Source: an uncultured Pirellulaceae bacterium
GTDB lineage: Bacteria; Planctomycetota; Planctomycetia; Pirellulales; Pirellulaceae
Length of the DNA stretch: 64,000 nt
Assembly (NCBI GenBank): GCA_937941455.1
Contig: CALDHM010000033.1
Coordinates: 62,001-126,000, forward strand
Reading direction: 5' to 3'
The notes below the pieces were generated by a model. It did no database searches. It saw only the letters and a program-made list of their open reading frames with translations, and was not told the DNA's origin. Positions 47,789 through 64,000 of this stretch are shown piece by piece; within the stretch, counting starts at the first letter, position 1, and the number at the start of each line of letters is the position of its first letter. The position numbers and the translations under genes were made by a program.

Positions 47789-48845
<1,057 letters not shown>

Positions 48846-59058: not shown

Positions 59059-60297
59059 ATGACCACGAGCTCGTTCGGCGACACGTTGCCAGCGTCCTTT
59101 CTCGGCGTTTCCCAGCAACCAGCTTTGGCTGACACTCATCCTTTTCCGAATGCCGTCAATTCAGAATGGAATACGGTCAAAGTCCTGAAGAAAAAGGCGC
59201 GGATCCTGATCCTCGACGACGAAGAATTAGTCGTCAAGGTCGTCCAACGGTTCTTGCAACGCGAGGGCTACGAGCATTTCATCACACTCACCGACTCGAC
59301 ACACGCGATTGAAACCATCACAAATGAAAATCCTGATACCGTGTTGATGGATATTCAAATGCCACAGGTCAGCGGGCTGGAGGTGCTGCACCAACGCAAA
59401 TCGATCCCACAACTTCTGTACACGCCTTTCATCATCCTCAGCGCGAACCACGACATCGAAACGAAACAACTGGCTCTCGAATTAGGCGCTACGGAGTTTC
59501 TGTCCAAGCCCGTGGAGCACATCGAACTAATCCTGCGGGTGCAAAATGCATTGATCGTCAAAAGCCACTTCGATCATCTTTCGAATTACACCAAAATGTT
59601 GGAGCAGAGGGTCAACGAACGTACTCTTCTGCTCGAACGCTCGCGCACGCAAATCCTCCAATGCCTCGCTCGAGCTGCGGAGTACCGCGACAATGAGACC
59701 GGTCGCCATGTCATGCGCGTCGGCATCTTTTGCCGGCTGATCGCAGAACAATTGCATCTGCCGGCTTCGTTCTGCCGACAGATCGAACTGGCCGCCCCGC
59801 TGCATGACCTGGGAAAAATCGGCATTCCTGACTCTATCATGCTGGGCACTCACAAACTCAGTGAGGCGGAATATGAGGTGATGAAACAGCACTGCGAAAT
59901 CGGCCGCCGCATCCTCGATCCGTTTGCCGCCGAGGAAATCGAATTGCTGAGCGATCCCGCGATCAATCGGGAGGAATTGCCCGAGTCGATGCGGATTCCG
60001 CTCATGACCATGGCCGCTCGCATCGCCCAAACCCATCACGAAAAATGGGACGGTTCAGGTTACCCCCTGGGTCTGAAAGGGGAGCAGATTCCGATCGAGG
60101 GACGAATCACCGCGGTCGCCGATGTCTACGACGCGTTGTGCAGTGAGCGGCCCTACAAGCCAAAATTTTCCCTCGAAAAATCGCTGGAGATTATGCTTTC
60201 CGAGCGAGGCACTCGTTTCGACCCGAACGTCTTGGACGCCTTCTGCGAGCGATTGCCTGCGATTGAAAAAATACGCCGCAAACTCAGCGACGATTGA
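59059..60297 (+). CDS. Response regulator with HD-GYP output domain
   Basis: 412 residues. An unusual 45-residue N-terminal extension precedes a receiver domain (ARILILDDEELVVKVVQRFL, phospho-accepting Asp near 97 in TVLMDIQMP, conserved Lys in FLSKPVEH). A coiled linker leads to the HD-GYP domain: GRHVMRVGIFCRLIAEQL, HDLGKIGIP near 250, HHEKWDGSGYPLGLKG near 325. These domains hydrolyse cyclic di-GMP, as RpfG does. No cognate kinase is adjacent. Convergent with the ATP-grasp gene, overlapping by 14 nt. Confidence 0.92.
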   Translation: MTTSSFGDTLPASFLGVSQQPALADTHPFPNAVNSEWNTVKVLKKKARILILDDEELVVKVVQRFLQREGYEHFITLTDSTHAIETITNENPDTVLMDIQMPQVSGLEVLHQRKSIPQLLYTPFIILSANHDIETKQLALELGATEFLSKPVEHIELILRVQNALIVKSHFDHLSNYTKMLEQRVNERTLLLERSRTQILQCLARAAEYRDNETGRHVMRVGIFCRLIAEQLHLPASFCRQIELAAPLHDLGKIGIPDSIMLGTHKLSEAEYEVMKQHCEIGRRILDPFAAEEIELLSDPAINREELPESMRIPLMTMAARIAQTHHEKWDGSGYPLGLKGEQIPIEGRITAVADVYDALCSERPYKPKFSLEKSLEIMLSERGTRFDPNVLDAFCERLPAIEKIRRKLSDD

Positions 60298-61183
60298 TCG
60301 ACCGCATGCCTAGCAACATGTTCAGGACGCGCTTAGCTATATCAACCTGCAGAATCTCGGCAAGATAACGCCAGCCGGGGCAAGCGTTCACCTCCAGCAG
60401 CAGCGGTCGGCCATCCTCATCGTAAATTAAATCGATCCCCGCCAGCCGCGTCGCCAGCACGTTGGCCGTCCGCCGAGCCAAATCACGCGCGGTTTCATCC
60501 GGCTCAAAGGGGCTGACGCCCGCACCACGTGAGGCGTTCAGGCGCCAGTCGTCCTGCCGCGAGCGTTTCATCGCAAAGAGCTCCTCACCGATGACAAGCA
60601 ACCTTAAGTCCCAGCCGTGATGACGAATGAATTTCTGCACGTAGATCGTTCGCTCGGACCGCTCGAGGGCTTGAAACACGCGACGCGCTAAACCAGGGTC
60701 GTTGACGCGCAACAAGCCCCGACCTTCACTCCCGAAAACTGGTTTGACAACGACATCGCTACCCAAGGACTCGAAGGCCTCATCCGCGTCGTCAGCCGTT
60801 TGGCAGGCCACAGTCGGCGGCACGGGTAATCCTGCAGCCTGTAGTCTTGCCAAGGCCAGAAATTTGTCGATGCAAACCTCGATGGCCCGCGAAGAGTTGA
60901 GCACGGGAGTGCCCTGCTGCTCGAGAACACTCAAGGCATCCATCCGCAATACGACTTGTTCCAGGGAACCGCGCGGCATCGCGCGGCACAAGACACCGCA
61001 GCAATTTCCTAAATCCATGTCTCCGCAAATCACGCGGCAGCTTTCGGCATCCAAACGGCAGCACAGGTCCTCGTAGCGGCACCGAACGAGGTGACAACAT
61101 CCCGTCGCTGCACGATTCAAATCGTCCCAGTGCCACGGACCGACACTTCCTACAACAGCGATCCGCGGTGCCACGTCATCCAT
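60284..61183 (-). CDS. RimK-like ATP-grasp ligase next to mch
   Basis: 299 residues. ATP-grasp fold: DVVVKPVFGSEGRGLLRV binds ATP, IYVQKFIRHHGWDLRLLVIG continues the lid, and DGRPLLLEVNACPGWRY holds the Mg-binding Glu and Asn. Its start ATG shares the TGATG with the stop of mch, so it is coupled to it. RimK/CofF/MptN-like ligases add glutamate to peptides or folate-type cofactors; a role in tetrahydromethanopterin tail modification is a reasonable inference. Confidence 0.8.
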   Translation of the reverse strand: MDDVAPRIAVVGSVGPWHWDDLNRAATGCCHLVRCRYEDLCCRLDAESCRVICGDMDLGNCCGVLCRAMPRGSLEQVVLRMDALSVLEQQGTPVLNSSRAIEVCIDKFLALARLQAAGLPVPPTVACQTADDADEAFESLGSDVVVKPVFGSEGRGLLRVNDPGLARRVFQALERSERTIYVQKFIRHHGWDLRLLVIGEELFAMKRSRQDDWRLNASRGAGVSPFEPDETARDLARRTANVLATRLAGIDLIYDEDGRPLLLEVNACPGWRYLAEILQVDIAKRVLNMLLGMRSINRR

Positions 61184-62166
61184 CAGTCAACACCGTTGGG
61201 CAACAAACCTAACGAGCGCAAAAACAACTCTTCGTGCAAAGAACCAGCGACAAATAATCTCCCCGTGCGGCAGTTGTTAAAAGTGACTCGCGCGGGACTG
61301 AACAGCAGGCGATCGATTTTGTAAAAATCGCGGTCGTATTTTTCAAAGGTTTCCAAAAATGGACGTCCGAAATCCCGCGATCGGCAGCTCGGCAATTCCG
61401 CCAAAACGGCTTCGATCTGTGCGTCGTCGCAATCGACCCAGAGGGTCACGTCGCTGCCGAAAATGATCGCATCGTTCGTCCAACCAATGCTTTGCAAATC
61501 ATCAGCGCCGATCGGCGGCAGGGGGCAGTTCCCAAACGCTCGCACGACCCGCGACAGGTCGAAGCCCAGTTCGAACAACTTGTGCATGGCCGTTTCAATG
61601 CACCGCGCGACGATTTGAATGGTCCCCGGTAAGCTGGAGGTACGGGCAATGCAAAACGTCAATTCCGACGGAGGTAATTGGCAATCGATTCCGGCCAGCG
61701 TCACGGCAGTTTCGGTCGGGAGTTTGGCCCCTTCCAATATCACGACACCCTGCGAGGCGATTTCTTGCAACTGGTACCGATCCAGCATACTTTCGCGTCC
61801 TCGCAACATCCGCGCCGGTCCGCTGGCCATCGCAAAATAATCTGCGGTTGACAGGGGCCAACCAGCGTATTGCGATCCGATGCAAGCCCACAGCGGATCG
61901 TCGGTTTCAACCATTACCGTCGGTAGCGGCCCAATCGATCCGCCTTGTGCGGCAAGGGAAACTTGTCCCAAGCCCGCCAAGCACAATTCCGCCAAGATAC
62001 GACCGCCGGCCAGTGTCCCTAGCCGATCCATGCCGAAGTCGAGAATCACGCTACCGCAGGCCCCCGGTAGGACGCGCACGTCAGCGGCATGTAATCGCTG
62101 GCCGCCGATCGCATCGATGGCGCTGCGAGCAAGTTGGTTGAGATTCTTTTGATTGATGGCCGCCAT
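61183..62166 (-). CDS. mch: Methenyltetrahydromethanopterin cyclohydrolase
   Basis: 327 residues, the length of archaeal and methylotroph Mch. It interconverts methenyl- and formyl-tetrahydromethanopterin in C1 transfer. Family features: RVLPGACGSVILDFGMDR, LGQVSLAAQGG, YFAMASGPARML, and FGNCPLPPIGADDLQSIGWT, followed by YDRDFYKIDRLLFSPARV and FNNCRTGR. Planctomycetes are one of the few bacterial groups known to carry this pathway. Part of a minus-strand string dnaJ-like, rnpA, mch, ATP-grasp. Other pathway genes (fae, mtdB, fhc) are not in the window. Confidence 0.93.
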   Translation of the reverse strand: MAAINQKNLNQLARSAIDAIGGQRLHAADVRVLPGACGSVILDFGMDRLGTLAGGRILAELCLAGLGQVSLAAQGGSIGPLPTVMVETDDPLWACIGSQYAGWPLSTADYFAMASGPARMLRGRESMLDRYQLQEIASQGVVILEGAKLPTETAVTLAGIDCQLPPSELTFCIARTSSLPGTIQIVARCIETAMHKLFELGFDLSRVVRAFGNCPLPPIGADDLQSIGWTNDAIIFGSDVTLWVDCDDAQIEAVLAELPSCRSRDFGRPFLETFEKYDRDFYKIDRLLFSPARVTFNNCRTGRLFVAGSLHEELFLRSLGLLPNGVD

Positions 62167-62220
62167 GATGGTTCTCGCCCCAAAACGCTGACTACACGTT
62201 CAACAATTCGTTTCTTGTTT

Positions 62221-62607
62221 TCATCGATCGCTCCGCGTTTGTTTTTTCCCAAGGCGTTTTGCCAACTGGATCAGCGAGACACGGGCTTGCTCCAAACTGG
62301 GCATCCGATTTCCTTGGGGGCGCACGATCAAATCCCAATCTGCCGGCAAGGAATGTTGCTCCAGTCGAAAGGCCTCCCGCACGACTCGCTTCCAACGATT
62401 GCGTTGCACCGCGTTGCCAAACCGCTTGCCAATTGACAATCCGAGCCTTGGGGTTCCCTTACCCATCGAGCGTTGACGACCATTGATTTGCAGCCAGGCA
62501 TCGGCGACGTACAACCGCGTCTGGAACACCGCCGCATATTCTCCGGGCTTGCAGACGCGCTGTCGCTTGGTGAACGGTAGATCCAAAAGTCTTTCTCCGC
62601 TCACCAC
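62221..62607 (-). CDS. rnpA: Ribonuclease P protein component
   Basis: 128 residues. Small basic protein that helps RNase P RNA process tRNA 5' ends. The signature is RLGLSIGKRFGNAVQRNRWK followed by RVVREAFRL. The start is GTG 62607 or GTG 62604; the latter overlaps the dnaJ-like stop as GTGA. The usual neighbours rpmH and dnaA/yidC are absent; it lies instead between a J-domain gene and mch, 54 nt from mch. Confidence 0.93.
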   Translation of the reverse strand: MVSGERLLDLPFTKRQRVCKPGEYAAVFQTRLYVADAWLQINGRQRSMGKGTPRLGLSIGKRFGNAVQRNRWKRVVREAFRLEQHSLPADWDLIVRPQGNRMPSLEQARVSLIQLAKRLGKKQTRSDR

Positions 62608-63569
62608 TTCAAGTCACCGCGCAAGTCCTGACGTTCGATTTGAGCAAGCAACGTTTTCAACTCGCGCGACTGCGAATCCGGGATGTTCTCGGGGACCATC
62701 ACTTTCAGTTCGACCAGCAAATCTCCTTTTTGCCCTTGATCCGTTCGCACCCCCATCCCTTTCAACCGGAGAACGCGGCCGCTATTTGAACGGGGCGGAA
62801 CCTTGAGCGCGACCGTACCGTAGGGAGTTGGCACATCGACCGTGGTGCCCCAGATCGCCTCCGAGACAGTAATCTCGAGACTGAGATTGAGATTCAATCC
62901 GGTGCGCCGAAAGAATGGATGCGGCGCGATTTGCACCCTCACGTAGAGATCGCCCCGGCGATTTCCGGAACCGACGGCCCCCTGATTCTTGAGGCGAATT
63001 TTCTTACGATCCTCGATGCCTGCCGGAATTTTCACGGCAATGGTTTTGACACCATCAGGCCGCTGCACCGTCACGCGATGCTCGCCTCCCAATACAGACA
63101 CGGCAAACGGAATTGTGATCTCTGTCTCGATGTCCAGCGACGATTCCTCAGGCTCAGGGCTTTCTCCACCGCGGCCGCCAAAATCGCCCGGATTGAACCC
63201 GCCGAATTGCCGCAGAATTTCTTCGAACCCCATACCACCGGCTCTAGATCGCCCCCGGCGATTGCCGAAGATTTGGCTGAGGTCGATCTCCATGCCCCCC
63301 GGCGGGACTTGCCCCTCAAAGGGTTGTCCGCCTGGGCCCCTCATTTGCTCGAAATTTGGGCCGAAACGGTCGTACAACACCCGTTTCTTTTCATCGCCTA
63401 GGACATCGTACGCTTGCTGGATTTTTTGGAACTTCTGCTTAGCTTTTTCTTTGTCCTCGTGCAAGTCGGGATGGTATTGCTTGGCCAGCTTGCGATATGC
63501 CTTTTGGATTTCCTGTTGAGTAGCTGTCTTGGGGACGTTGAGCACCTTGTAGTAGTCGTCGTTTGACAT
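62601..63569 (-). CDS. DnaJ-class chaperone without zinc finger (CbpA-like)
   Basis: 322 residues. The N-terminal J domain has the HPD motif in LAKQYHPDLHEDKEKAK near residue 34; a Gly/Pro-rich linker follows (RGPGGQPFEGQVPPGG, FGGFNPGDFGGRGG). The C-terminal substrate-binding domains follow (VTVQRPDGVKTIAVKIPAGI, DLYVRVQIAPHPFFRR, LLVELKVMVPENI). The CxxCxGxG zinc repeats of DnaJ are absent, as in CbpA. It would stimulate DnaK. First gene of the rnpA-mch-ATP-grasp string. Confidence 0.93.
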   Translation of the reverse strand: MSNDDYYKVLNVPKTATQQEIQKAYRKLAKQYHPDLHEDKEKAKQKFQKIQQAYDVLGDEKKRVLYDRFGPNFEQMRGPGGQPFEGQVPPGGMEIDLSQIFGNRRGRSRAGGMGFEEILRQFGGFNPGDFGGRGGESPEPEESSLDIETEITIPFAVSVLGGEHRVTVQRPDGVKTIAVKIPAGIEDRKKIRLKNQGAVGSGNRRGDLYVRVQIAPHPFFRRTGLNLNLSLEITVSEAIWGTTVDVPTPYGTVALKVPPRSNSGRVLRLKGMGVRTDQGQKGDLLVELKVMVPENIPDSQSRELKTLLAQIERQDLRGDLKW

Positions 63570-63854
63570 CGTGAACGATTATTCGTTTGGAATGATCAAC
63601 ATCGGAAATGCAAAACACTAGGATTTTACCACTTGCAGCAAGTTTCTTCGAGGCAACATCCGCCACAAAACCTCGACATCGTGTTGATTTTCGGCAACAT
63701 CAACATGCGGTAACGGAGTGAAAAACGACGATACACGCCGTGAAATAGTGGAAAAAACGGCTTTCGCTTAGATTTTAACCTACAGCCGAGTCCACTGGCA
63801 TCGCGACTGCTTCCTATTGCCCGGCAACTGTCCGCCAATGCAAGGGAGCCGTGC

Positions 63855-64000
63855 ATGTCGAAACGCAAATCTGATCCGAATCAACCGGGAAATCCACGCA
63901 ATGAACTGCCGATCACCAAGACCTTCGATGATGATCTGCTGGACGACCAACATTTGACCGTCGGTCAAGACGCGGATTTCGAGGCCGATGAACTGGCTGT
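63855..64000 (+). CDS. Hypothetical protein, 5' part only
   Basis: The first 48 codons are visible, beginning MSKRKSDPNQPGNPRNELPI and continuing acidic (TFDDDLLDDQHLTVGQDADF). AAGGGAG lies eight nt before ATG 63855. It diverges from the dnaJ-like gene. Too little is present to name a family. Confidence 0.5.
   Translation, partial: MSKRKSDPNQPGNPRNELPITKTFDDDLLDDQHLTVGQDADFEADELA

Follow-up and report, generated by a model that had tools for sequence, protein, structure and literature searches.

A J-protein gene ahead of rnpA and a one-carbon gene pair behind it: gene order at a Pirellulaceae locus

In an uncultured Pirellulaceae bacterium rnpA, the gene for the protein component of RNase P, lies between a dnaJ-like gene and mch, the gene for methenyl-tetrahydromethanopterin cyclohydrolase. 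We analyzed this arrangement in a window of 64,000 nucleotides (nt), positions 62,001 to 126,000 of contig CALDHM010000033.1 (assembly GCA_937941455.1), and compared it with related genomes. The arrangement is best explained as an ordinary neighbourhood that arose in two steps: a class-level order dnaJ-rnpA-yidD, followed by a move of mch and an adjoining ATP-grasp gene to the position behind rnpA in one sublineage. We put the probability of this explanation at roughly 80%.

The four-gene locus

The window belongs to a 4.04-Mb draft genome of 77 contigs, labelled G000 below; G001 is a congener in a separate assembly. An earlier note on this DNA had proposed four minus-strand genes that overlap or lie within 54 nt of each other, and both their open reading frames (ORFs) and their families were confirmed:

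62601–63569, minus strand: class-B J-protein gene (dnaJ-like), 322 amino acids (aa); J domain and C-terminal domain, no zinc-finger match
62221–62607, minus strand: rnpA, RNase P protein component, 128 aa counted from the first GTG
62167–62220, minus strand: gap of 54 nt between rnpA and mch, the position of yidD in most relatives
61183–62166, minus strand: mch, methenyl-tetrahydromethanopterin cyclohydrolase, 327 aa; TIGR03120, 319.5 bits
60284–61183, minus strand: RimK-like ATP-grasp ligase, MptN/MyfB(Orf5)-like, 299 aa

The J-protein passed the cut-offs for PF00226 and PF01556 and contained no other Pfam domain. Having no zinc-finger match it falls into class B (CbpA-like), and it reached no cut-off among the full-length DnaJ equivalog models of NCBIfam. 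RnpA scored 77.9 bits with PF00825 (cut-off 22.3) and 50.9 bits with TIGR00188 (cut-off 38.35); the TIGR03120 score of Mch compares with a cut-off of 228.8, and PF02289 gave 334.9 bits (cut-off 25). The ATP-grasp protein was recognized as a RimK family alpha-L-glutamate ligase (TIGR00768, 175.4 bits, cut-off 143.4). Its best-scoring model was NF040720, which describes the tetrahydromethanopterin glutamate ligase MptN, yet the 178.2 bits obtained are below the cut-off of 350. In Methylorubrum extorquens the ATP-grasp protein encoded by orf5 of the one-carbon (C1) cluster is described as MyfB, which extends the polyglutamate chain of methylofuran (PMC8141765), and the position of our gene beside mch would fit a predicted MyfB (Orf5) role. 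We predict that the protein is probably a glutamate ligase of C1-carrier biosynthesis, MyfB and MptN both being candidates.

The dnaJ and rnpA genes overlap by 7 nt when the first GTG is taken as the rnpA start and by 4 nt (GTGA) when the second is used. The third possible start is a TTG at 62586, which is preceded by purine-rich sequence. The overlap of mch with the ATP-grasp gene is 1 nt (TGATG). A single rnpA match was obtained in the whole G000 draft, and the RNase P RNA (rnpB) is encoded on another contig (G000:C22; RF00010, 304.3 bits, cut-off 100). An Rfam scan of the window at the gathering threshold detected a tRNA at 47789–47861 as the sole element.

G001 has the same four-gene order, on a contig of 819 kb from the separate assembly. 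For these genes the comparison of G000 with G001 gave nonsynonymous values (pN) of 0.16–0.34 and synonymous values (pS) of 0.79–0.81, the latter being saturated. With pN well under pS, all four genes are selected as proteins (purifying selection), and together with the repeated order this means that the arrangement is neither a chance one nor an assembly join. RnpA was the least conserved of the four proteins, with 50% identity between the two genomes; the corresponding values were 76% (J-protein), 69% (Mch) and 55% (ATP-grasp protein).

Distribution of the gene order

Forty relatives from the same order (Pirellulales) were sampled, two of which (G020, G021) gave no rnpA match. The remaining 38, two further members of the order and 12 genomes of another family made up a set of 52 genomes of the class (Planctomycetia). 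A J-protein gene was counted if it shared the strand of rnpA and lay no more than 1.5 kb upstream of it. This was the case in 44 of the 52 genomes (34/38 order relatives, 2/2 further order members and 8/12 members of the other family). Outside the class no J-protein gene was found near rnpA at any of 28 planctomycete loci with flanks up to 1.5 kb; these loci are the non-class members of the 30 best-scoring rnpA loci from 232 matching genomes. By its distribution the dnaJ-rnpA link looks like an old, class-level feature.

Downstream, the usual partner of rnpA is yidD. It was found behind rnpA in 36 of the 52 class genomes (27/38, 2/2 and 7/12, respectively), although some contigs, such as those of G007 and G019, end before an answer is possible, and at 25 of the 28 loci outside the class. 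Since the yidD link spans the class and its outside whereas the dnaJ link is confined to the class, rnpA-yidD looks older than dnaJ-rnpA. In G000 yidD is not behind rnpA: it is located on contig C6, and rnpA on C33. The yidD of G001 is likewise on a contig other than that of rnpA, and G002, a member of the same genus, retains rnpA-yidD. The displaced genes are at L292:7654–7833 (G000:C6) and G001:C7:24914–25096; by eye, their neighbours resemble in both genomes a cluster that we presume to be of the MoxR-type ATPase/DUF58 kind.

The usual yidD position behind rnpA is occupied in G000 and G001 by the mch/ATP-grasp pair. These two were the only ones among the 38 order relatives with rnpA in which mch lay within 1 kb of it. 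In G022 the two genes are 2.66 kb apart on opposite strands, G006 and G018 gave no mch match, and in the remaining relatives the distance between mch and rnpA exceeds 80 kb or the two are split between contigs. The genome collection supplied 80 further mch loci with named records, and at none of them was rnpA found near mch, with flanks of up to 8 kb and many shorter. The best-matching named records were those of Blastopirellula, Pirellulaceae, Pirellulales and Planctomycetaceae, which would fit a member of the Pirellulaceae. When these 80 loci were combined with 30 from the relatives, mch and the ATP-grasp gene were adjacent on the same strand in 89 of the 110, including loci titled Methylophilaceae, Ancylobacter and Chloroflexi; three more had a wider gap, and the pair was not seen in 18. 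The earlier note had suggested a lineage-specific rearrangement. The comparison of gene order upholds this for the mch/ATP-grasp pair, whose link to rnpA is restricted to G000 and G001, but not for dnaJ-rnpA, which is common in the class.

The window Mch is 69% identical to that of G001, 54% to that of G002, 49% to that of G004 and 39–45% to ten other alignment rows. Each of the genomes G000 to G004 yielded one mch match. In a tree of 33 mch rows the five genus members formed one clade (100/99), in which G000 and G001 were sisters (100/99) and G002, with rnpA-yidD kept, branched first. On the evidence of this tree, made for mch alone, mch has been inherited vertically. Because the tree follows the genus, the new position of mch is attributed to rearrangement and not to acquisition; horizontal acquisition of mch was considered and is rejected on the tree.

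Expression signals and flanking genes

Two candidate signals were located at the ends of the four-gene array:

63623–63657, minus strand: candidate promoter block upstream of dnaJ, GTTGCCTCGAAG ... TAAAAT, conserved with G001 in a pairwise alignment
60274–60292, minus strand: hairpin and T run resembling a terminator, located where the ATP-grasp gene ends; such scan sites are no commoner in the region than in shuffled sequence

In the upstream block 22 nt separate TTGCCT from TAAAAT, the latter at 63628–63623. The spacer of a standard sigma-70 promoter is shorter, and for this reason the block is regarded as a candidate promoter only. The scan detected no terminator-like or promoter-like site in the gap between rnpA and mch, and thus neither the terminator nor the strong promoter that would have spoken against the linkage proposed in the earlier note. 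However, promoter and terminator scans of the region gave 2 sites versus 1.6 in shuffles and 4 versus 5.2. Being no better than shuffles, the method makes the empty gap weak evidence. One transcript through all four genes is our inference.

Around the locus G000 and G001 share response-regulator/HD-domain (RR-HD) and LysR genes downstream and a sigma-factor gene upstream. The RR-HD gene is convergent with the ATP-grasp gene, with a 14-nt 3′ overlap (60284–60297); in G001 the two are likewise convergent and overlap by 4 nt. The upstream neighbour, a plus-strand gene of the sigma-70 family divergent from dnaJ, begins at 63855 and extends beyond the window end; it is also present in G001 and G003.

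Search for rpmH

The earlier note took the normal place of rnpA to be next to rpmH, the gene for ribosomal protein bL34. This was not borne out in the phylum as sampled: no bL34 gene was found beside rnpA at the 28 loci outside the class (flanks up to 1.5 kb), and no rnpA near 45 bL34 loci. The rnpA profile used for the latter recovers all 61 of the rnpA loci, although these same loci went into its construction. An rpmH gene standing alone elsewhere in G000 was not found either, as neither PF00468 nor the bL34 profile described below gave a match in that genome; with one rnpA match and no bL34 match, there was also no second rnpA next to rpmH.

With PF00468 none of the 40 order relatives exceeded the cut-off, versus 154 of 246 phylum genomes with a match. 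Fourteen sub-cut-off matches (E 0.1) were seen in 12 of the 40 relatives; nine of these loci were checked by eye and were not bL34-like. We also used a bL34 profile built from 27 sequences, 25 of them planctomycete. It found nothing at E 0.01 in the 40 order relatives, with up to 150 candidates per genome being scored, and nothing at E 0.001 in 198 class genomes, with no more than 36 scored candidates among the 20 rows listed. Applied to 18 planctomycetes that do not belong to the class, it matched 15 at E 1e-7 or better, and these 15 had supplied no rows to the profile. The other three (G044, G150, G165) gave weak matches only, and the bL34 gene may be missing or diverged in these too. Among 16 class members searched at E 0.05, 15 had no match and G063 had a weak one: PF00468 gave E 4.8e-4, and the profile 0.0082 over 20 residues. 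The profile hit falls in a short reading frame that is enclosed by a 419-aa ORF of the same strand but a different frame. Because the profile hit is out of frame inside a larger ORF, the G063 match was treated as chance, on the assumption that the PF00468 match is at the same site. A hidden bL34 ORF near rnpA was also sought in class loci, and the best of 4,972 small ORFs had E 0.31.

The searched class genomes include several assembled as one contig with a completeness of about 99% (e.g. G010, G015, G023), and assembly gaps are therefore no explanation for the absence. The short yidD (67 positions) was recovered from 38 of the 40 order relatives; no other small ribosomal protein was searched as a control. 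Taken from these profile searches, the class appears to have lost bL34 as a whole, or bL34 may have diverged beyond the reach of the profile.

Protein bL34 is among the most nearly universal bacterial ribosomal proteins. The survey of Yutin et al. (2012) covered 995 genomes, two Pirellula among them, and reports that between one and three lack L34p, so the loss may already be recorded there. Among the literature matches listed, no title or abstract opening described the dnaJ-rnpA order or a loss of bL34 in the class. Elsewhere in the collection, ten sampled genomes of the planctomycete family f59, 99–100% complete and two of them single-contig, have a short bL34 match of 38–41 bits, e.g. L148 (G255:C1:3661600–3662100). 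In Kuenenia stuttgartiensis CSTR1, L34 is reported as missing (PMC7709395). Small ORFs may be overlooked in annotation.

Discussion

The pattern probably arose as follows. Early in the class, in a phylum where rpmH does not adjoin rnpA, a class-B J-protein gene would have been placed upstream of the older rnpA-yidD pair to give dnaJ-rnpA-yidD. Within the genus of the window the rnpA-yidD link would then have been broken, and in the lineage of G000 and G001 the long-established mch/ATP-grasp pair, which would serve tetrahydromethanopterin- and methylofuran-linked C1 metabolism, would have landed behind rnpA with its own sequence history kept. Most likely a single transcript would begin upstream of dnaJ, stop-start coupling to dnaJ would drive the translation of rnpA, and read-through would serve mch and the ATP-grasp gene. 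Each protein would act in its usual role, as a co-chaperone of Hsp70, a subunit of RNase P (whose RNA has its gene at another site), methenyl-tetrahydromethanopterin cyclohydrolase and glutamate ligase. The analysis establishes what the genes are, how they are ordered and distributed in the sampled genomes, and that mch was inherited vertically; we infer the single transcript, the order of the steps, the stop-start coupling and the absence of a functional link.

Several points weigh against this explanation. Eight of the 52 class genomes have no dnaJ upstream of rnpA (G008, G014, G023 and G030 in the order; G063, G175, G232 and G254 in the other family). Beyond its 40 order members the class sample has one other family, so that "class-wide" leans on few families outside the order. 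Support is low (96/76 and 87/42) for the next two inner forks of the mch tree, which would order the break of the yidD link within the genus, and the assemblies of G003 and G004 are in 660 and 340 pieces. Finally, mch may have a promoter of its own.

The alternative that the four genes form a functional unit, with chaperone, tRNA processing and C1 transfer co-expressed for growth, would account for the tight spacing and the overlaps. It would also account for the order being kept in two congeners despite an RnpA identity of about 50%; however, the RR-HD, LysR and sigma-factor neighbours are kept too, and general synteny between G000 and G001 may suffice for this. We consider such a unit unlikely, as the mch link occurs in just two of the 38 order relatives with rnpA and the genes are elsewhere on separate contigs or from 2.7 kb to megabases apart. 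The growth-linked co-expression suggested in the earlier note is unnecessary for explaining the pattern.

Acquisition of mch and the ATP-grasp gene from another lineage, with insertion behind rnpA, would fit the new position of the pair and the displacement of yidD. It is highly improbable given that the window Mch is closest to those of genus members, inside a strongly supported genus clade, and that each of these genomes has one mch match. An assembly or binning artefact might be suspected in a draft of 77 contigs, but the identical order on the long contig of G001, assembled separately, leaves this with a negligible chance.

The order rpmH-rnpA-yidD-yidC is found in many bacteria (PMC10941002). 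G000 resembles it in having one rnpA match, as do most relatives in having yidD behind rnpA. It differs in that rpmH is neither near rnpA nor recognizable anywhere in the genome, a dnaJ-family gene lies upstream, and the G000 lineage has yidD elsewhere and mch/ATP-grasp in its place. The second element of the locus recalls the "archaeal-like" C1 gene cluster of methylotrophs, which includes mch and orf5; C1 genes are also reported in planctomycetes (PMC8141765, PMC5020050). Here too a RimK-like ATP-grasp gene is found among C1 genes, in the window directly behind mch and on the same strand; the difference is that the pair is joined to dnaJ-rnpA. The locus is an operon-order variant of a familiar type in which an inherited layer is combined with a recent one, and not a new system. 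As the odd company of rnpA is mostly inherited order plus one recent local move, no new functional link between tRNA processing and C1 transfer should be deduced.

Among the by-products of this analysis the most interesting is that bL34 appears to be absent throughout the class, and this matters more than the gene order itself. Tentatively, and with the odds against it, one may picture that the class lost bL34 after rpmH and rnpA had been split in the phylum, and that the J-protein promoter took over rnpA, tying synthesis of the RNase P protein to chaperone supply and not to ribosome supply. If a loss of bL34 across a class of free-living bacteria is true, their ribosomes would be a natural test of the role of bL34, and the same genomes would also test how rnpA is regulated without rpmH.

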